From the NCBI RefSeq assembly GCF_964204645.1, contig NC_134035.1:13311951-13375950 (forward strand): a stretch of DNA of 64,000 nt, given 5' to 3'. Below, piece by piece: positions 353 through 63,215 of the stretch; within the stretch, counting starts at the first letter, position 1, and every line of letters starts with the position of its first letter. A model generated the notes under the pieces. It made no database searches. It was given only the letters and a program-made list of their open reading frames with translations, and was not told the DNA's origin. The position numbers and the translations under genes were made by a program. Source of the DNA: Tubulanus polymorphus (lineage: Eukaryota; Nemertea; Palaeonemertea; Tubulaniformes; Tubulanidae).

Positions 353-1725
353 GAATTCATTTGAATGTAATCGAAGGAAGCGATGACCCGGAACGCGAAT
401 CTTATGACAACATCGTTGCAATCGATGACGTCATCAGAACGGTGTTCTCAATGAAACATAAGACGACCGTGTCGTGTTTGATTGGTAACGCCGGAGCCGG
501 TGGGGCGATGATGGCCGCCGCTACCGATTTCGTTTTTGCTCATAAGGTACGAGTCTTCCTAAGAGGGTTATATGTGCCCCTAGCCCGGGTTCAAACTCTC
601 TCGGTTAAGATTTGAGTCTTCTATTCAAAACGTTGACTAATTTAACCAAGTATGTTGACCAAGTTGTATAACCTGGTTATACCTGTTATCCTCGACCTAG
701 TTATTCGTGACCTAGTTATTTACGACCTAATTATACGTGACCTCGTTGTCTATAACCTAATTATTTATTCATTGCATCGATAGCAAACTCCATGAATGAA
801 TGATTTATTTACTTGTACAAGATTATAAACAATCAATTCTTTGGATATAATTTCATAGATAAATAGGTACATGTATAAGAAGGACAACCCCAAGCCCTAG
901 GGGCTGAGCCACCATCATCAATGATTCATTGAAATACTGTTTATGCTTCTCTTATTTCAGGGAGTTGTTTTGACGCCTACGTATAAAGCGATGTACCTTT
1001 ACGGATCGGAATACTGGACGTACTTCCTGCCGCAGAGGGTCGGTTACGACACGGCGCTGTCTTTGACAAACGACACGAAATCGATGATGGCTTCAACTGC
1101 TCAACGTATTGGACTAGTCGATCAGATCATCGGACGGTATGAGTACCCCCAACCAACTCATCTCTTACTCTCTCCGTCTTCTTTACCTTTCCCATTCTCC
1201 CCTCCTCAGCTGAATCTGCCTCTCACTCCATCTTCCCCAGCCTCCCACCCTATCCCATTCCCCTCCCCACTCTCAACCCTCCCGATCCATCCACTCGCTG
1301 TCGCTACCAATTGCTTTCGTCGCTTCTCTTTTAGCACTTGCTTTATATTCATCCAGGTCCACTTTCCAATATACCCCCCCCCATCCTTAATTTCATCCAC
1401 ACAATTTTCTTTTTATGCATTCTGATGACTTTCATGAAAGAAATGATAACCGCAAGCAGGTACTGAAAATGTATTCCACAAAATTCACGCCCGTATTTTT
1501 GTTTTTAACAGGAATCGACCGGAAGCGTTGGGAAATTTACACGATCGAGTCCTGAATTTGTTACAATCGGAAAAATGTCAAACGAAACGTGAAGAGAAAC
1601 GCAATAGAACTCACGAATGGTATCAGATGTTAGAGGAACATCGAACCGAAGAATTGAGCAAAATGCAGAAATGTTTCAGTAGCGAGGATTATCACGAGGC
1701 CAGGAGAAAATTCGTCTATCACTGA
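353..1725 (+). CDS. HypX/HoxX-like protein, C-terminal enoyl-CoA hydratase-type part (5' partial gene)
   Basis: Three exons are read as 353-546, 961-1136 and 1512-1725 (stop TGA). Entry into the first is phase 1, the next junction is phase 0 and the last phase 2, all with GT/AG borders. The roughly 194 visible residues begin GIHLNVIEG. They contain the crotonase oxyanion-hole segment GNAGAGGAMMAAATD, then YLYGSEYWTYFLPQRVG and IGLVDQIIG, and end in DYHEARRKFVYH. This order and the ending are characteristic of bacterial HypX/HoxX rather than of ordinary enoyl-CoA hydratases. Bacterial HypX joins an N-terminal formyl-transferase half to a C-terminal crotonase half and makes CO from a formyl donor for [NiFe]-hydrogenase maturation. 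The formyl-transferase half should lie upstream, outside the window. Animals have no such hydrogenase, so the role here is unknown. Bases 1-352 are intron. The spliced structure argues against bacterial contamination. Confidence 0.85.
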
Positions 1726-2287: not shown

Positions 2288-3340
2288 CTAAGATGTTTTG
2301 CGTGACCAGCATTTCATCCATGTTACAATAAAAGCGGCTTCCGAACGGAATTTCCTATTTGTAAAACAATAAACACTGAAATTAGCGCAAGAATCAAACA
2401 TTGACATCAACAGCGACACCTTTCTCATAATCATGTTGCTAGGTCCAGTGAAAATGTTTAATTCCAATCGATCCAAACAACCAGGAAATTCACAGATAAT
2501 ATAAACCACAACAACTGCTGAAACCATCCGCAATATTCCTGCATCTTTTCCCTGAACAGCAGAGCCGACTATTAGCGACTTACGGCGGTTTTTGGTCCAT
2601 GTATAAACAGCAAATAGGACGATGTTAACAATCAAAAGAAATGCGATCGGTAGATAAATGATACCAAACGCGATAAGATCATGGTGTTTAATGTAACCTC
2701 GCAGAAAGTGGGTTCCAGTCGGAAGATAGGTAATGTCTGTGTACTCCTCAAAGTACATGGTGTAAGTATATTGACCTGGTTTCAAACAGGGCCATCTCGT
2801 TAAACCCGGTATCCTGCGAGGAATTATGAAATCATAGTAAAACAAAATTGCCAAAAACAACAGCGTAAAGCAGACGAAATTAATAGTCAAAGGTCTCCAG
2901 AAGCGTCTATACGTTAATGGGAAAATTATAACTAAAATTCTCTCTAAACTCACAACAACGACGAGCCAGTTTCTGACAAACTGTGACGGATACAGTCCCA
3001 TATAGGCGACAGTAATAAACCACCAACCAAAATGCCAGTCGTCATAACGAAAAACCAAGTCTCCCAGATTACTGTAAATGAAATACGTTCTCAGCGGGTA
3101 CATGATAAAAGATGATAAACTGAACGCAAGATCAGAAACCGCTAAAAGACAAATTGTGTGATAACAACTACTATTGCGTAGTCTGCGTATAATGATAATA
3201 GTCAGAATATTCAACACAATACCACAAACAGTAACAGGACCCATTCCTGTCATATAGATGTAAACACTGAACTGATAGTTCCATCTTATTGTCTGAGAGC
3301 AATGATACGTCGCGGTCGGACGAGAACCGTTCACTGCCAT
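2288..3340 (-). CDS. Rhodopsin-class GPCR, peptide-receptor-like, copy A (intronless)
   Basis: A single uninterrupted frame of 350 residues starts MAVNGSRP, with an N-glycosylation site (NGS) at residues 4-6. Seven hydrophobic segments are visible. Recognisable landmarks are GIVLNIL in TM1, LAVSDLAFSL in TM2, NWLVVVVSLERILVIIFPL at the end of TM3 (ERI in place of DRY), CEFPG in TM6 and DSCANFSVY in TM7 (in place of NPxxY). This set resembles the FMRFamide-receptor-like GPCRs expanded in many invertebrates. The usual cysteine before TM3 is not apparent, while the second extracellular loop keeps WPCLKPG. The C-terminal tail is very short and ends SRKTS. It is one of three tandem copies on this strand, with copy B at 4803-5870 the closest relative. 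The ligand cannot be told; chemosensory or neuropeptide use are both possible. The start is supported by the shared MAVNGSRP start of copy B. Confidence 0.85.
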   Translation of the reverse strand: MAVNGSRPTATYHCSQTIRWNYQFSVYIYMTGMGPVTVCGIVLNILTIIIIRRLRNSSCYHTICLLAVSDLAFSLSSFIMYPLRTYFIYSNLGDLVFRYDDWHFGWWFITVAYMGLYPSQFVRNWLVVVVSLERILVIIFPLTYRRFWRPLTINFVCFTLLFLAILFYYDFIIPRRIPGLTRWPCLKPGQYTYTMYFEEYTDITYLPTGTHFLRGYIKHHDLIAFGIIYLPIAFLLIVNIVLFAVYTWTKNRRKSLIVGSAVQGKDAGILRMVSAVVVVYIICEFPGCLDRLELNIFTGPSNMIMRKVSLLMSMFDSCANFSVYCFTNRKFRSEAAFIVTWMKCWSRKTS

Positions 3341-3694
3341 TGTTCACACTCTCAGTAACCACGAGTCATACACTGCTTTCCACAAAGTTAACATAATATT
3401 AACATTTGGCGGCACAAATAATTTCATCCTTTCTATTCTTCAGAAACTTCCTGACTAAATCCAAACTTCTGTTGTGTGTCGGATTATTCTTCATTGATTA
3501 AGCGAGTGTAAAGCAGCATGGCCTAATTTCATTGGACACATTCGTAGAATCTAGTTTATTCTATCGTTTTTACAATAGCCGGTCATATTTCATTCGATGA
3601 AAACTAAATTTAGAAAATCGTGTATTTTAGCAGTGAAATTCTGTTGAAATATGAAATGACTTTGTGCACGAATTTTGCATTGTGTTGAATCTGA

Positions 3695-4089: not shown

Positions 4090-4799
4090 TTATCGAATTT
4101 TCAAAATGTGTTTTATCCTTGTAAGAACAACGGCGGCTTCAAAACGAAATCTTTTATTCGTCAAACAATAAACGGTAAAATTCACACAAGAATCAAACAT
4201 TGACATCAACAGTGACACTTTCCTCACAATCATTTTATTTCGGGTTTTGAAAATGAAACGGAAAATATTCATAGGCATTCGATCAAAACAACCCGGCAAT
4301 TCGCAGATAATATAAACCACAACAACTGCTGAAACCATCTTCAATATTCCTGCATCTTTACTCCGAGCAACAGAGCCACCTATTAGTGATTTACGGCTTT
4401 TTTTGTCCATGTATAAACAGCAAATAGAACAGCGTTTACAACTAATAGAAATGTGATTGACAAGAAAACGATACCAAACGAGACTCGATCGTTGTGGTCA
4501 ATGTTACCGTTCAAAAAGTGGTAGTCACCGAAAAGACGAGTCGTGTCCGTATACCTCTTAAAACAAACTGTATAAATAAACAGGGCCATCTCGTTAAACC
4601 CGTTATCCTGCGAGGAATTATGAAATCAAAGTAAAGTAAAATTGCCATCGAAAGCAGCATAAAACAGAGTAAATCAATAGTTAAAGGTCTCCAGAAGCGT
4701 TTACAATTTAATGGGAAAATTATAACTAAAATTCTCTCTAAACTCACAACAACGACGAGCCAGTTTCTGACGAACTGTGACGGATACAGTCCTATTAAG
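4090..4799 (-). pseudogene. Truncated, frameshifted GPCR copy
   Basis: Homology to the flanking receptors runs from GLYPSQFVRNW (just before TM3) to the C-terminus (KHILKIR and stop), but everything before TM3 is missing. The coding is broken twice. Near 4575-4590 about 16 bases present in the intact copies are absent (in the loop that reads WPCLKPGQYTYT in copy A). Near 4400, within the lysine codons after YTWTK, a further shift occurs. The left edge of the homology abuts the 3' end of copy B directly (around 4800), so a tandem duplication with deletion, or unequal crossing-over, probably removed its promoter and first third. It should not make a receptor. Confidence 0.88.
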
Positions 4800-4802
4800 G
4801 TA

Positions 4803-5870
4803 TCATGGTATCGCATTTCTAAGATGTTTTGCGTGACAGCGGAATTTGATCCATGTTACAATAAAAGCGGCTTCCGAACGGAATTTCCTATTTGTAAAAC
4901 AATAAACACTGAAATTAGCGCAAGAATCAAACATTGACATCAACAGCGACACCTTTCTCATAATCATGTTGCTAGGTCCAGTGAAAATGTTTAATTCCAA
5001 TCGATCCAAACAACCAGGCAATTCACAGATAATATAAACCACAACAACTGCTGAAACCATCCGCAATATTCCTGCATCTTTAGTCTGGGCAGCAGAGCCA
5101 CCTATTAGGGATTTACGGTGTTTTTTGGTCCATGTATAAACAGCAAATAGAAGAGCGTTTGCAACTAATAGAAATGTGATTGGCAGATACACAATACCAA
5201 ACGAGATTAGATCGTTGTGGGTTATGTAACCATCGAAAAAGTGGGCGGCAGTGTATAGATATGTGATATCTGTATACTTCACGAAGGAAGTGGTATAAGT
5301 ATACTGACCTGGCTTCAAACAGGGCCATCTCGTTAAACCCGGGAACCTGCGAGGAATTATGAAATCATAGTAAAATAAAATTGCCAAAAACAACAGCGTA
5401 AAGCAGACTAAATTGATAGTTAATGGTCTCCAGAAGCGTCTATACGTTAATGGGAAAATTATAACTAAAATTCTCTCTAAACTCACAACAACGACGAGCC
5501 AGTTCCTGACAAACTGTGACGGATACAGTCCTATAAAGCCTACATATATAAACCACCAGCCAAAATGCCAGTCATCATAACGAAAAACCAAGTCTCCCAG
5601 ATTACTGTAGATAAAATACGTTCTCAGCGGATACATGATAAAAGATGATAAACTGAACGCAAGATCAGAAACCGCTAAACGACAAATTGTGTGATAGCAA
5701 CTATTGTGCAGTCTGATTATAATGATAATAGTCAGTATATTCAATAGAATACCACAAACAGTAACAGGACCCATTCCTGTCATATAGATGTAAACACTGA
5801 ACTGATACTCCCATCTTATTGTCTGAGAGCAATGATACGCAACGGTCGGACGAGATCCGTTCACTGCCAT
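4803..5870 (-). CDS. Rhodopsin-class GPCR, peptide-receptor-like, copy B (intronless)
   Basis: A 355-residue frame closely matches copy A throughout: MAVNGSRPTVAYHC at the start, LAVSDLAFSL, NWLVVVVSLERILVIIFPL, a CELPGCLDRLE segment in TM6 and NFSVYCFTNRKFRS at the end of TM7. The sequence upstream of the start (CACTCTCAGTTACCACGAG on the plus strand) also resembles that of copy A, so the duplication included the proximal promoter. The tail differs. A net two-base difference from copy A near the 3' end moves the frame past the stop used in copy A and adds KHLRNAIP. The stop TGA lies in the junction with the pseudogene at 4803-4805. Divergence between A and B is concentrated in the second extracellular loop, where ligand contacts often lie. 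Confidence 0.85.
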   Translation of the reverse strand: MAVNGSRPTVAYHCSQTIRWEYQFSVYIYMTGMGPVTVCGILLNILTIIIIIRLHNSCYHTICRLAVSDLAFSLSSFIMYPLRTYFIYSNLGDLVFRYDDWHFGWWFIYVGFIGLYPSQFVRNWLVVVVSLERILVIIFPLTYRRFWRPLTINLVCFTLLFLAILFYYDFIIPRRFPGLTRWPCLKPGQYTYTTSFVKYTDITYLYTAAHFFDGYITHNDLISFGIVYLPITFLLVANALLFAVYTWTKKHRKSLIGGSAAQTKDAGILRMVSAVVVVYIICELPGCLDRLELNIFTGPSNMIMRKVSLLMSMFDSCANFSVYCFTNRKFRSEAAFIVTWIKFRCHAKHLRNAIP

Positions 5871-6536
5871 TGTTCACACTCTCAGTTACCACGAGTCATA
5901 CACGACAGTACCCTGCTTTTACATAGTTAACACAATTACATTCAGCGACAAAACCATTTCATCCTATTTAATTCTGCAGAAACTTCCTGACTAAATTCAC
6001 ACTTCTGTGGTCTGGTGATTCTACTTTCACTGATAAATTGAGTGTAATAACCAGAGTAGGCCTGATGTAATTTCATTGGACACATTTTCATTGAAATCAG
6101 ATTACCTTTACCGGTCTCACAGTGTAGCTGATAGATATTTCACTCGGCGGTGATATTAGAAAATCAAGAATTAACAGCGATGAAATTCTGTTGAAACATT
6201 TAGAATGGTTTAATCTCCAATCAGCATCTTAGTGAGTTAGTGAGTTAAGGATGCTTGCTGTACCTTATTAGTACCGAGAGACAAGGGGGTACGGCCGGCT
6301 TTACTGGCAGCTAACAGGGTGTGGGCAACACATCAATGGCCATGGTCCGGTCGTGAAATTAATTTCTATTTATCAGGTTATGTTGGATTTTTCTCCATAA
6401 GATTTTATTACTTCTGCAGTAGATTCCGGGTTAGTTGTTTATTTCTGATTTGGTTCCACGAATGAGAATCGAACCGCTAGAACTGAGAGATGAATAAAAC
6501 ACAAACTAACACAAATCAGTAATGAAACGGCTTTTC

Positions 6537-6855: not shown

Positions 6856-26356
<19,501 letters not shown>

Positions 26357-35100: not shown

Positions 35101-38100
35101 ACGGGTGTTCACATAGAACCAGTGTTCATATAGTGAACATAGAACTAGTGTTCATATCGAACTGTTCGACAGTTGTGAGTTAAAATCTATTCATCTTCAA
35201 TGATTTTAATTCTAATCAAGTCTGAACAGTTGTGAGTAACTCATGAGTTAAAATCAATTCATTTTCAACGAGTTAACTCCGAACCAAATCTTAACTCACA
35301 ACAGTGGAACTGGTTCGTGGTGTGTTCATGTAGAACTGGTGCCTGAGTGAGAGAGAGAGAGATGTAAAACTACCGGCTGATTTAAAACAAACACAAACAC
35401 AATGCTACGAATGCTGCGTTCATTCTCACGTTAATCAATAAACCGTGCGATAAAACAACAACCTATAAAACTAACACACTTCAAAATTAACATTATCAAA
35501 ATGATTTCCGATGAATCTCGAAATTTCGCAAATTTCTCAGCCGATAATTTCACAAATTTCCTTTCATCGAAAAACGAAAACGACAACGATTTTTAATCAG
35601 CATCGAACGACATCGATATCCATCACCAGTGAGTCGACTTACTCCCGAGTCGGTAACTTTCCGTTAGCCGCCGATAAACCGCCTTGACCTCCCGCAAAAC
35701 CGTAACCGTGGATACCGAATTCACGTCCGTAACATGTGAAACAATAAACCTCTTCCTGATGTAATTTAGATGTTCGAGCGTCTAATAATTTACTGCAACC
35801 AACTACAATTAACCAAACCATCGTCGTAACCAACCATTAACCTAGTAACCATAGTTATTACTGATTGTAACCATAGAAACCAGCCATAACCGTAGTAACC
35901 ACTGGTAATAACCATAGAAACCAACCGTTAACCTAGTAACCAGAGTTGCTACTGATTGTAACCATAGAAACCAGTCATAACCATAGTAACCATTGGTAAT
36001 AACCATAGAAACCATCAATTACCATAGTAACCACAGGTATGGTATATAATAACAGAGCAGGTATTAACCCTTTCAGTGCAGAGTACTCCACACTGCGGTG
36101 TATAACCCACCCACGATACATCGCATCTACTCTTACCCACCGTGCGGTGTATTCATGTAATTATTAATTAGTTACGTAAAATCTCTATTGAAAGAGGCAG
36201 CACCTGTCAAACATAGAAATACTCACAGCGGGGTAAGAGTATATCATAGCACTGAAAGGGTTCAATCATTAAGATGTATCGAGCAGTTAGTTGTTCACTA
36301 ATAGTGTGAGATCAGTAGTCACTGCATTCATTGAAACTCCTGGGCCCGGTTCTAAAGTCATGGCTTAGTCTTAAGACCAGTCTAAGACTGTGTTAGTTTA
36401 TCTCAATAATCGAGCAACTTAAGACCGATCTTGATGTTTAAAAATACTTTTGGACTTATCAGTCTTAACTCTGGAACCGGGCCCTGGGTACAACCTCCCC
36501 GGGTGAAACCTCCCCGGGTACAACCTCCCTGGGTACAACCTCCCCGGGCACAACCAAACCATCCTCTTTCAATACTTACGGCACTTTAAACAGAGTTTAT
36601 GGAATTTTTTTCCGCCGGCTTCGACACATTCAGCGTGATAAACCGTCGTCTGACAACGATGACATTTATCGCCACCTCCGAATTTAGAAGCTAACGGATT
36701 AGATTGAGTCGGTCTCGCCGGCTGCTGCCTGCATGAAAACAAATAATAATACTGTAGAAATTGTCAAAAATTAGTTATTTTGACCGACAGTATTAAAAAC
36801 ATGGGAAATGAACGATTCTGAACTCTAGGACAGACCAGACAACTTGATATCTCTAACTGGAGTAGTTTTCACAAAAATTTAGAATAGATTGACTAGATTC
36901 GACTGAAAAGTCGTTGTTTAATTGAAAATGAACTAGAAATTATTGTGATTTTGAGAGTAACTTGATAGTCTTGGGATCAGTTGAGCTCTTTAAAGAGAGT
37001 AGGAATGACTACCAAGTCACATCTGCTCGAGTCACACTCATTTGAACAGAGTCCTCTAGTGACAGACAGATAGACAGAGATTGACAGACAGAGATAAACG
37101 GACAGACAGACAGAGATAAACGGACAGACAGACAGACGTACGTATTGGTAGATTCAGCACCGTGTTCAGTTGATAACCCAGCACCACCACCTCCACCAAA
37201 CCCGTATCCAGCTGCGCCAAACTTCTTCTTATGACACGGTATACAGTATGGTGTACCATCGTGATCGGCTGAATTACCTCCTTCTAATGTTTTACCGCAA
37301 TCGTCTAAAAACAGAAAATAATCTCACGTCACAAACTGTTACTCAGTATTTGACACCAACTCGGGGTAGAATTTTACCAGTCTCAACCTTACCGCAGTAA
37401 GAGACAGAGTCTACTGTATTTAACAAACTCTTACTCAGTATTTGACACCAACTCGGGGTAGAATTCTACCGGTCTCAACTTTACCGCAGTAAGTGACAGA
37501 GTCTACTGTATTTCACAAACTCTTACTCAGTATCTGACACCAACTCGGGGTAGAATTTTACCGGTCTCAACTTTACCGCAGTAAGAGACAGAGTCTACTG
37601 TATTTCACAAACTCTTACTCAGTATTTGACACCAACTCGGGGTAGAATTTTACCAGTCTCAACTTTACCGCAGTAAGAGACAGAGTCTACTGTATTTCAC
37701 AAACTCTTACTCAGTATTTGACACCAACTCGGGGTAGAATTTTACCATGCTCAACCTTACCCCAGTAAGAGACAGAGTCTACTGTATTTCACAAACTCTT
37801 ACTCAGTATTTGACACCAACTCGGGGTAGAATTTTACCATGCTCAACCTTACCGCAGTAAGAGACAGAGTCTACTGTATTTCACAAACTCTTACTCAGTA
37901 TTTGACACCAACTCGGGGTAGAATTTTACCAGTCTCAACTTTACCGCAGTAAGAGACAGAGTCTACTGTATTTCACAAACTCTTACTCAGTATTTGACAC
38001 CAACTCGGGGTAGAATTTTACCATGCTCAACCTTACCCCAGTAAGAGACAGAGTCTACTGTATTTCACAAACTCTTAATCAGTATTTGACACCAACTCGG

Positions 38101-38285
38101 GGTAGAATTTTACCATGCTCAACTTTACCCCGAGTAAGAGACAGAGTCTACTGTATTTCACAATCAAACTTACCGCATTTAAAACAGCTTTGATGCCACG
38201 TTTTATTCAAAGCCTTTCTTTCCTCGTTGAAATAAACAGATTTATTACATTTGGCACAAGTCGGTCCTCCACCATAAACCGGCAT
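32112..38285 (-). CDS. Three-LIM muscle-type LIM protein (CSRP/MLP family)
   Basis: Exons in transcription order: 38174-38285 (ATG at 38285), 37142-37304, 36580-36728, one of 35643-35802 or 33755-33917, 32894-33020, 32626-32719 and 32112-32188 (stop TAG). Phases agree throughout, giving 293 or 294 residues. Each LIM domain is split across exons just at its central cysteines. LIM1 begins CAKC and continues WHQSCFKCDDC to YCIPC. LIM2 is CHRC, FHKLCLKC and then the alternative half. LIM3 is CFRC, FHKQCFKCKMC to YCKGC. After every domain comes the Gly-rich CRP-type linker (GYGFGGGGGAGLS, GPKGYGYGGGAGAL). CRP/MLP proteins bind alpha-actinin and actin-associated partners at Z-discs and in the nucleus. 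An acceptor at 38319 starts the coding exon, so a non-coding first exon lies further right. Vertebrate CRPs have two LIMs; some invertebrate MLPs have more. Confidence 0.92.
32560..32612. repeat. G-rich low-complexity tract in LIM intron
   Basis: Runs of GGGGTGAGAGGGGG on the plus strand (C-rich in the transcript) directly beside exon 32626-32719. Being next to the donor, it could influence splicing, but this is only positional. Confidence 0.7.
33255..33440. repeat. 24-bp purine-rich minisatellite in LIM intron
   Basis: About seven units of AATGGGAGGAAGAGAAGGAT GAGG, preceded by a longer GA-rich tract from 33060. It lies between alternative exon 33755-33917 and exon 32894-33020, and is CT-rich in the transcript. 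Confidence 0.9.
33755..33917 (-). CDS. LIM2 second half, alternative exon b' (mutually exclusive)
   Basis: After its acceptor (33918-33920 CAG) this 163-base exon completes the split codon as Q. It encodes TCNKLLTPGSIKQHQDG, LYCPSCYGKDFG and a Gly-rich linker, ending in phase 2 (GA) before GTAAGT. Entry phase 1 and exit phase 2 equal those of 35643-35802. Spliced after exon 36580-36728 it restores LKC-Q-T-C, the correct CxxC spacing. No separate first-half LIM exon exists between 33918 and 35642. Confidence 0.85.
34838..34871. repeat. (TA)n microsatellite
   Basis: A short TA run of about 12 units in the intron between the two alternative LIM exons. Confidence 0.85.
35165..35330. mobile_element. 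Partial AACTGTGGAACTGG-family element
   Basis: GTTGTGAGTTAAAATC on the left and CTTAACTCACAACAGTGGAACTGG on the right match the element at 41448-41560; part of the left half is duplicated. It lies in the LIM intron upstream of alternative exon b'. Confidence 0.6.
35643..35802 (-). CDS. LIM2 second half, alternative exon b (mutually exclusive)
   Basis: A 160-base exon completes the split codon as L and encodes GCSKLLDARTSKLHQEE, VYCFTCYGREFG and the linker GYGFAGGQGGLS, ending PTRE in phase 2 before GTAAGT. Its zinc ligands fit LIM2 perfectly (LKC-L-G-C, then CFTC). Joining it to 33755-33917 would read GAA AAC GTG CAA TAA, a stop, so only one of the two can be used. Confidence 0.85.
35830..36055. 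repeat. Degenerate AACCATAGAAACC tandem repeat
   Basis: Many imperfect copies of ACCATAGAAACCA and AACCATAGTAACCA in the LIM intron between exons 36580-36728 and 35643-35802. Confidence 0.8.
36352..36486. mobile_element. GGCCAGTTGCATAGTC-family MITE, LIM intron copy
   Basis: CTGGGCCCGGTTCTAAAGTC on the left and CTCTGGAACCGGGCCCTGGG on the right are inverted repeats, with AAGACCAGTCTAAGAC inside. The termini have shifted from GTTGCATAG to GTTCTAAAG. A CTCCCCGGGTACAAC repeat follows at 36486-36555. Confidence 0.7.
37329..38165. repeat. 92-bp satellite filling a LIM intron, about 9 units
   Basis: Units at 92-base spacing (TCAGTATTTGACACC at 37343, 37435, 37527 and on) occupy about 840 of the 869 bases of the intron between exons 38174-38285 and 37142-37304. 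They are the reverse complement of the array at 24237-24560. High unit identity indicates recent homogenisation. Confidence 0.93.
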
Positions 38286-62814: not shown

Positions 62815-63215
62815 GTGAACTGTGGAACTGGATCCAGAACAGTAGAACTGATTCAAAGCAGTGGTACTGGATCCAGAACTGTGAAACTGGATTCAGAACT
62901 GTAAAACTGGATTCAGAACTGTGGAACTGATTCCAGAACTGTGGAACTGGATCCTGAACTGTGGAACTGAATCTAGAACTGTGGAACTGGATCCAGAACT
63001 GTGGAACTGGATCCAGAACTGTGGAACTGGATCCAGAACTGTGAAACTGGATTCAGAACTGTAAAACTGGATTCAGAACTGTGGAACTGAATCCAGAACT
63101 GTGGAACTGGATCCTGAACTGTGGAACTGAATCTAGAACTGTGGAACTGGATCCAGAACTGTGGAACTGGATCCAGAACTGTGGAACTGGATCCAGAACT
63201 GTGGAACTGGACTCT
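62815..63215. repeat. 20-bp minisatellite, unit GAACTGTGGAACTGGATCCA
   Basis: About 20 units, the same unit as at 25745-26010 and, inverted, 17534-17835. A higher-order repeat of about 180 bases is visible (62860-63030 matches 63040-63210). To its left, GACCTGATTCCACAGTGTTC resembles the start of an AACTGTGGAACTGG-family element. Confidence 0.92.

Follow-up and report, generated by a model that had tools for sequence, protein, structure and literature searches.

Bacterial HypX makes carbon monoxide (CO) that goes to [NiFe]-hydrogenase, with HypC and HypD as maturation partners. To our knowledge, animals have no [NiFe]-hydrogenase. What does a HypX gene do in an animal? The question is raised by a 64,000-nucleotide stretch of DNA (here, the window) from the palaeonemertean ribbon worm Tubulanus polymorphus, in which an earlier note, made from the sequence, had proposed a spliced HypX/HoxX-like gene. 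The animal gene so far carries just an automatic "hydrogenase maturation" label. We found no account of eukaryotic or metazoan HypX/HoxX in the literature searched, which reaches few subscription papers; "HoxX-like" appeared there only in Chromobacterium papers.

Results

The window holds the last three exons of a HypX gene

We found that positions 353-1725 of the plus strand contain three exons, which together encode the C-terminal 193 of the 636 residues of a HypX. The features are as follows, with residues numbered as in the full-length protein and the roles of Tyr416 and Glu426 as given in the accessible part of PMC6802093.

353..546, plus strand: exon 1 of 3, preceded by AG; residues 444-507 after a split codon
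547..960, plus strand: intron, GT...AG
961..1136, plus strand: middle exon; residues 508-565 and two bases of Arg566
982..984, plus strand: codon TAT, Tyr515, equivalent to Tyr416 of Aquifex HypX, candidate general base
1009..1011, plus strand: codon GAA, Glu524, equivalent to Glu426 of Aquifex HypX, candidate general base
1137..1511, plus strand: intron, GT...AG, its first half pyrimidine-rich
1512..1725, plus strand: last exon; last base of Arg566, residues 567-636 and the TGA stop

The spliced exons (353-546, 961-1136, and 1512-1725) form a single open frame, and both complete introns run from GT to AG. The 193 amino acids match residues 444-636 of an NCBI protein, "hydrogenase maturation factor HoxX-like [Tubulanus polymorphus]" (P0001; 636 residues), at 100% identity over their full length. 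The proposal of a spliced HypX/HoxX-like gene in an animal genome was therefore borne out. The GNAGAGG oxyanion-hole loop lies in exon 353..546, where Ala491 corresponds to Ala392 of Aquifex HypX (numbering from the available text of PMC6802093). Both proposed decarbonylation residues are encoded in the middle exon. The last exon supplies the C-terminal helices of the predicted model and the tail YHEARRKFVYH, with TGA at 1723-1725. The exons had been read as the crotonase half of HypX down to a YHEARRKFVY ending. The ending is present, but the exons encode just the last 193 residues of that half, whose ECH_1 domain starts at residue 396. Residues 1-443 gave no tblastn match in the window, and the full protein matches just the three exons; the remaining exons therefore lie to the left of base 1. 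A scan of genome contigs with the 193 amino acids alone confirmed no locus.

The window has other features besides this gene. Two closely similar intronless receptor-like frames of 351 and 356 amino acids lie on the minus strand at 2288-3343 and 4806-5873, with a broken third copy between them at about 4100-4800. The frame at 2288-3343, the one scanned, has a weak 7tm_1 Pfam match (E = 0.0002, below the cut-off), and these frames behind the HypX gene may be a recent tandem family of seven-helix receptors. A 92-base satellite forms arrays at 24253-24559 and 37329-38163, whose consensus units look like mutual reverse complements. A 20-base unit close to GAACTGTGGAACTGGATCCW forms arrays at 25746-25996, 62817-63211, and 17540-17832, and similar words occur at about 1830-1990, just downstream of the HypX stop codon.

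The Tubulanus protein belongs to HypX by both halves

The earlier note had asked for the N-terminal formyl-transferase half, and we found it in the full-length protein. Pfam placed three domains, all above the cut-off: PF00551 Formyl_trans_N (residues 115-216), PF02911 Formyl_trans_C (259-356), and PF00378 ECH_1 (396-634). Compared by sequence with solved structures, the protein matched Aquifex HypX over residues 82-634 with an E value of 1.3e-98. The next solved relative was the hydrolase domain of zebrafish 10-formyltetrahydrofolate (10-formyl-THF) dehydrogenase (5.2e-10), and single-domain formyltransferases and crotonases were far weaker matches than Aquifex HypX. When we used the 193 amino acids alone, five Aquifex HypX chain sequences scored between 8.2e-36 and 7.6e-35; the best solved protein outside HypX was an enoyl-CoA hydratase at 2.2e-6. 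This gap argues that the HypX match is not due to chance.

Structure prediction gave the same answer. An AlphaFold model of the full-length protein, built from 21 relatives, had a mean pLDDT of 84.7 and a pTM of 0.82. In a fold search with this model, the top eight PDB matches were all HypX (1.5e-52 to 3.5e-51), and rank 9 was a methionyl-tRNA formyltransferase (2.3e-15). At an rmsd of ~4 Å to HypX (570 columns), the model is too coarse for conclusions on how the domains pack in detail. A stand-alone crotonase identity (ECHS1-like) was rejected, since the best matches by sequence and by fold are HypX and the formyl-transferase half is present. The upstream half is likewise not an ordinary enoyl-CoA hydratase N terminus, nor are mitochondrial enoyl-CoA hydratases the best matches, the two outcomes that would have spoken against HypX. 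We concluded that the Tubulanus protein belongs to HypX by both halves, by its best sequence and fold matches, and by its proposed catalytic residues.

Residues proposed for catalysis are retained in animals

The published proposal assigns formyl transfer to His74, Asp80, and Asp109. It assigns decarbonylation to Tyr416 and Glu426, a pair tied to that step by Ralstonia mutants (Muraki et al., PMC6802093, accessible part). We checked both halves, as had been suggested, and found all five in Tubulanus HypX, as H158, D164, D193, Y515, and E524. The combination HDDYE is present in 94 of 96 proteins longer than 500 amino acids from the first search; the other two have no front half. In a 263-row alignment, 229 of the 233 rows without gaps at these sites carry it, the other 30 rows being fragments or broken gene models that we left out of the count. 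The four exceptions are Bacteroidota (L005, L008, L020, and L050) with Thr at the Tyr416 position, so this Tyr is not universal. HypD or hydrogenase genes occur at these four loci. Tyr416 and Glu426 are present in every eukaryote-like row free of gaps at the five sites, and all five residues are retained across several animal phyla at ~40 to 50% identity.

The coenzyme A (CoA) site is also largely kept. Asn306, which contacts the 3'-phosphate, is Asn404 in Tubulanus HypX and is kept in 256 of the 263 rows. Gln195 corresponds to Gln285, and Ser194 is conservatively replaced by Thr284. Aquifex Arg9 and Arg131 are not kept, being His and Val; these diphosphate contacts are reported as not crucial in the available part of PMC6802093.

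HypX is present in many invertebrates and forms an old eukaryote-like group

Animals named among the matches listed include Owenia, Lingula, Branchiostoma, Nematostella, Oculina, Montipora, Pocillopora, Actinostola, Hydra, and Trichoplax. Hypsibius, Bradysia, bdelloid rotifers, and the bivalves Pinctada, Mercenaria, Sinanodonta, Potamilus, Dreissena, Mya, and Mactra are among them as well, as are the nonanimal eukaryotes Chara, Ceratodon, and Ascophyllum. No vertebrate is named among the matches listed (120 rows per search). Several bivalves have multiple divergent copies: Sinanodonta (P0021 and P0033), Potamilus (P0022, P0044, and P0164), Mya (P0163, P0167, and P0177), Mercenaria (P0020 and P0043), Mactra (P0150 and P0158), and Pinctada (two or more). 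Some of these copies lie on contigs of equal listed length.

We built a tree of metazoan and bacterial HypX, as the earlier note had recommended, with 53 rows and 542 columns. It included 32 eukaryote-like rows (21 named, 5 from EukProt, and 6 others) and 21 bacterial rows, and the two sets were separated at 100/100 support. Eighteen core animal rows (Trichoplax, cnidarians, lophotrochozoans, lancelets, and three further rows) formed one clade of their own, apart from the bacteria (100/97). Within it, Tubulanus fell beside Owenia (100/99) and the cnidarians fell together (100/99), and the subtree agrees with animal relationships. A quick tree of 88 rows repeated the main split, 45 against 43, where by our choice "eukaryote-like" meant every database protein outside five known bacteria. 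Judged from these trees, the eukaryote-like HypX group is old; the root was set on the bacteria, and a single-transfer origin of the group depends on that root.

A single clade of all named animals was rejected when the gnat, tardigrade, and rotifer copies were forced together with the 18 core rows (p-AU = 2.2e-13), as was a clade of gnat, tardigrade, and core animals with the rotifer left out (p-AU = 5.7e-4). These copies therefore probably arrived by another route or are old paralogues, and their placement argues against a single simple history shared by all animals. Bradysia (gnat, P0142), Hypsibius (tardigrade, P0147), Chara (charophyte, P0160), and Ceratodon (moss, P0197) form one group outside the core animal clade, which probably reflects transfer between eukaryotes or old paralogues.

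The N terminus of most animal HypX proteins resembles a mitochondrial presequence

The N terminus of Tubulanus HypX, MYKLTALLRNGPRPVRRIVSGRCFGTMTSP, has no acidic residues, a net charge of +6, and a moment of 0.75. Residues 1-60 are unfolded in the model (pLDDT <50). We applied an ad hoc presequence rule to the first 30 residues (at most one acidic residue and a net charge of at least +3). The rule selected 34 of 48 chosen eukaryote-like proteins, compared with 3 of 44 bacterial rows, of which 38 began at the match start (Cupriavidus at its annotated start), and 579 of 9,600 internal 30-mers. Because most bacterial rows began at the match start, we recounted from the farthest in-frame ATG, which exists at 62 of 80 bacterial loci and gives an extension of at least 20 amino acids at 4 of the 62. 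By the same ad hoc rule, 16 of 21 named core animals were selected, compared with 6 of the 62 bacterial loci. The five animals that failed were Sinanodonta, Lingula, Pinctada, Mactra, and one Hydra isoform. By this simple rule, most animal HypX proteins are predicted to be mitochondrial.

FolD fusions point to 10-formyl-THF as the substrate

FolD converts methylene-THF to 10-formyl-THF, the HypX substrate. We found both FolD domains in at least 12 HypX relatives among 120 matches listed (P0148, P0155, P0166, P0168, P0169, P0170, P0172, P0174, P0175, P0179, P0183, and P0186), and FolD also in P0071 and P0101 among 120 matches listed in another search. A Pfam check was made for P0168 (Ascophyllum), P0174 (Adineta), and P0071; in the first two, FolD is C-terminal to the HypX part. 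The fusions come from rotifers, brown algae, other eukaryotes (EukProt rows), and one bacterium-like fragment (P0071). Under the filter used, 12 of 15 fusions carry the FolD active-site lysine pattern. The eukaryotic fusions share the HypX core with the Tubulanus protein and lie in the eukaryote-like part of the tree, but they continue into FolD (methylene-THF dehydrogenase/cyclohydrolase), whereas Tubulanus HypX ends with HypX. Such fusions would be hard to understand unless eukaryotic HypX uses 10-formyl-THF, and they would lead from methylene-THF towards CO within a single chain.

Bacterial HypX is not always linked to hydrogenase

We searched genome contigs with the HypX alignment and kept 80 loci of 593 relatives, among the matches listed. 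A hyp or hydrogenase gene lies near HypX at 52 of these 80 bacterial loci. No such gene was found in the examined flanks of the other 28, by a test with Cupriavidus queries at an E value of 1e-8 that may miss distant homologues. Fourteen of the 28 have ~10 kb on both sides (L002, L003, L023, L025, L033, L034, L041, L049, L053, L056, L062, L064, L070, and L071), and Lysobacter, Scytonema, and Methylocapsa are examples of bacteria with HypX outside a hydrogenase cluster. Even bacterial HypX is therefore not always hydrogenase linked. Among annotated plasmid neighborhoods, those of Acaryochloris and Mycetohabitans have no hydrogenase genes in the stretch shown, and that of Kitasatospora has them. 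When we clustered 378 open reading frames from 26 stand-alone loci, no partner was common across genera save one gene, by eye resembling a transcription regulator, at 4 loci of methane or C1 oxidizers. The neighbors at these 26 loci and on the annotated plasmids point to no alternative role.

Discussion

A predicted folate-fed CO synthase

Formyl transfer to CoA and decarbonylation by bacterial HypX were shown in vitro by the Lenz group, as summarized in the accessible part of a review (PMC12134894). Tubulanus and bacterial HypX/HoxX (Aquifex aeolicus, PDB 6J0P; Cupriavidus necator pHG1) share the order of the halves, the predicted fold, the five proposed catalytic residues, the CoA-site Asn, and the C-terminal tail. 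The Tubulanus protein differs in its introns, its presequence-like N-terminal extension, and its separate clade, and in animals no hydrogenase partner is known. We propose, with a probability of roughly 55%, that animal HypX works in mitochondria and makes CO from 10-formyl-THF via formyl-CoA, without a hydrogenase partner. The front half would move the formyl group of 10-formyl-THF to tightly held CoA, formyl-CoA would swing into the crotonase half, and Tyr515 and Glu524 would strip it to CO and CoA, while THF leaves. Since animals have no known [NiFe]-hydrogenase, CO itself would be the end product, which could act as a signal, modulate haem proteins, or, in siphonophores, serve as float gas. 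The FolD fusions of brown algae, rotifers, and other eukaryotes would combine supply and use of the substrate in one chain. The earlier note had set one-carbon metabolism and a CO source side by side as alternatives. By analogy with the bacterial enzyme, these are one HypX reaction, in which 10-formyl-THF is consumed and CO released. One point weighs against a mitochondrial CO synthase: CO poisons cytochrome oxidase, so its synthesis there needs explaining.

Two animal enzyme types invite comparison. ALDH1L1 and ALDH1L2 share front-half homology and the substrate family with HypX (human and zebrafish hydrolase domains, E = 5e-10 to 3e-7), but HypX has a crotonase half rather than an aldehyde dehydrogenase, and its expected product is CO, not CO2. 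Haem oxygenase is, like predicted animal HypX, an enzymatic CO source of animals, but it is an unrelated protein that uses haem and releases iron and biliverdin as coproducts. In HypX an Asp replaces the Ser of the triad found in 10-formyl-THF dehydrogenases, according to the available text of PMC6802093.

Alternative roles

Animal HypX might instead stop at formyl-CoA or divert it, either disposing of 10-formyl-THF as formate and THF or running in reverse to salvage formyl-CoA for the folate pool, with CO at most a by-product. Formyl-CoA is formed in animal peroxisomes, and conservation is as strong at the front-half residues and CoA contacts as in the back half. Other mitochondrial enzymes also handle 10-formyl-THF, ALDH1L2 being one (PMC7654619, part accessible). 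We nevertheless consider a formyl-CoA end point unlikely, because the decarbonylation residues are invariant in the gap-free eukaryote-like rows and Tubulanus HypX ends in VYH rather than in a peroxisomal, SKL-type signal. Animal HypX might also have lost catalysis while still binding THF and CoA, as a scaffold or regulator. Such a loss would fit the divergent copies found in six bivalve genera, at least two in each. It seems improbable given the persistence of five proposed catalytic residues in several phyla at the identity noted above.

Animal HypX might instead serve a hydrogenase, either one that the animal makes or one in symbionts that it feeds. This role would match the hyp and hydrogenase neighbors at 52 of 80 bacterial loci among the matches listed, including loci from some bivalve symbionts (L051, L057, and L066). 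Hydra, Nematostella, Branchiostoma, and Trichoplax, which are not known for such symbionts, have HypX all the same, and 28 of the 80 loci yielded no such gene; we regard this role as very improbable. Taken alone, the 193 amino acids might suggest contamination from bacteria, a private gene transfer of recent date, or a mitochondrial enoyl-CoA hydratase of the ordinary kind: Pfam detects ECH_1 alone, and the NCBIfam matches are enoyl-CoA hydratases, of which the best scores 45.1 bits where the cut-off is 311. The introns, the 14-Mb source contig, the animal clade, and the best match to HypX rule these explanations out for practical purposes.

CO in siphonophores and other animals

Siphonophore gas glands secrete CO, according to the accessible parts of PMC6820529 and PMC3916360. 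Hydra, another hydrozoan, has HypX. The Physalia gas gland was reportedly studied for folates in 1962, and in siphonophore glands serine is said to be the carbon source of CO, whose output a folate antagonist reportedly blocked. Such a pathway needs an enzyme joining formyl-folate to CO, and HypX is predicted to be such an enzyme. We tentatively suggest that a mitochondrial, haem-independent CO synthase acting on 10-formyl-THF was already present in the ancestor shared by placozoans, cnidarians, and bilaterians, if not earlier, and was kept in many invertebrates. Hydrozoans would then have turned it up to supply gas for the floats of siphonophores such as Physalia, and it could be the missing enzyme of folate-linked CO. 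CO is both a signal and a respiratory poison, and its recognized enzymatic source in animals is haem oxygenase. If the proposal is true, HypX would be a second enzymatic source of CO in animals besides haem breakdown. A folate-fed source would link one-carbon metabolism to gas signaling and to cytochrome oxidase.
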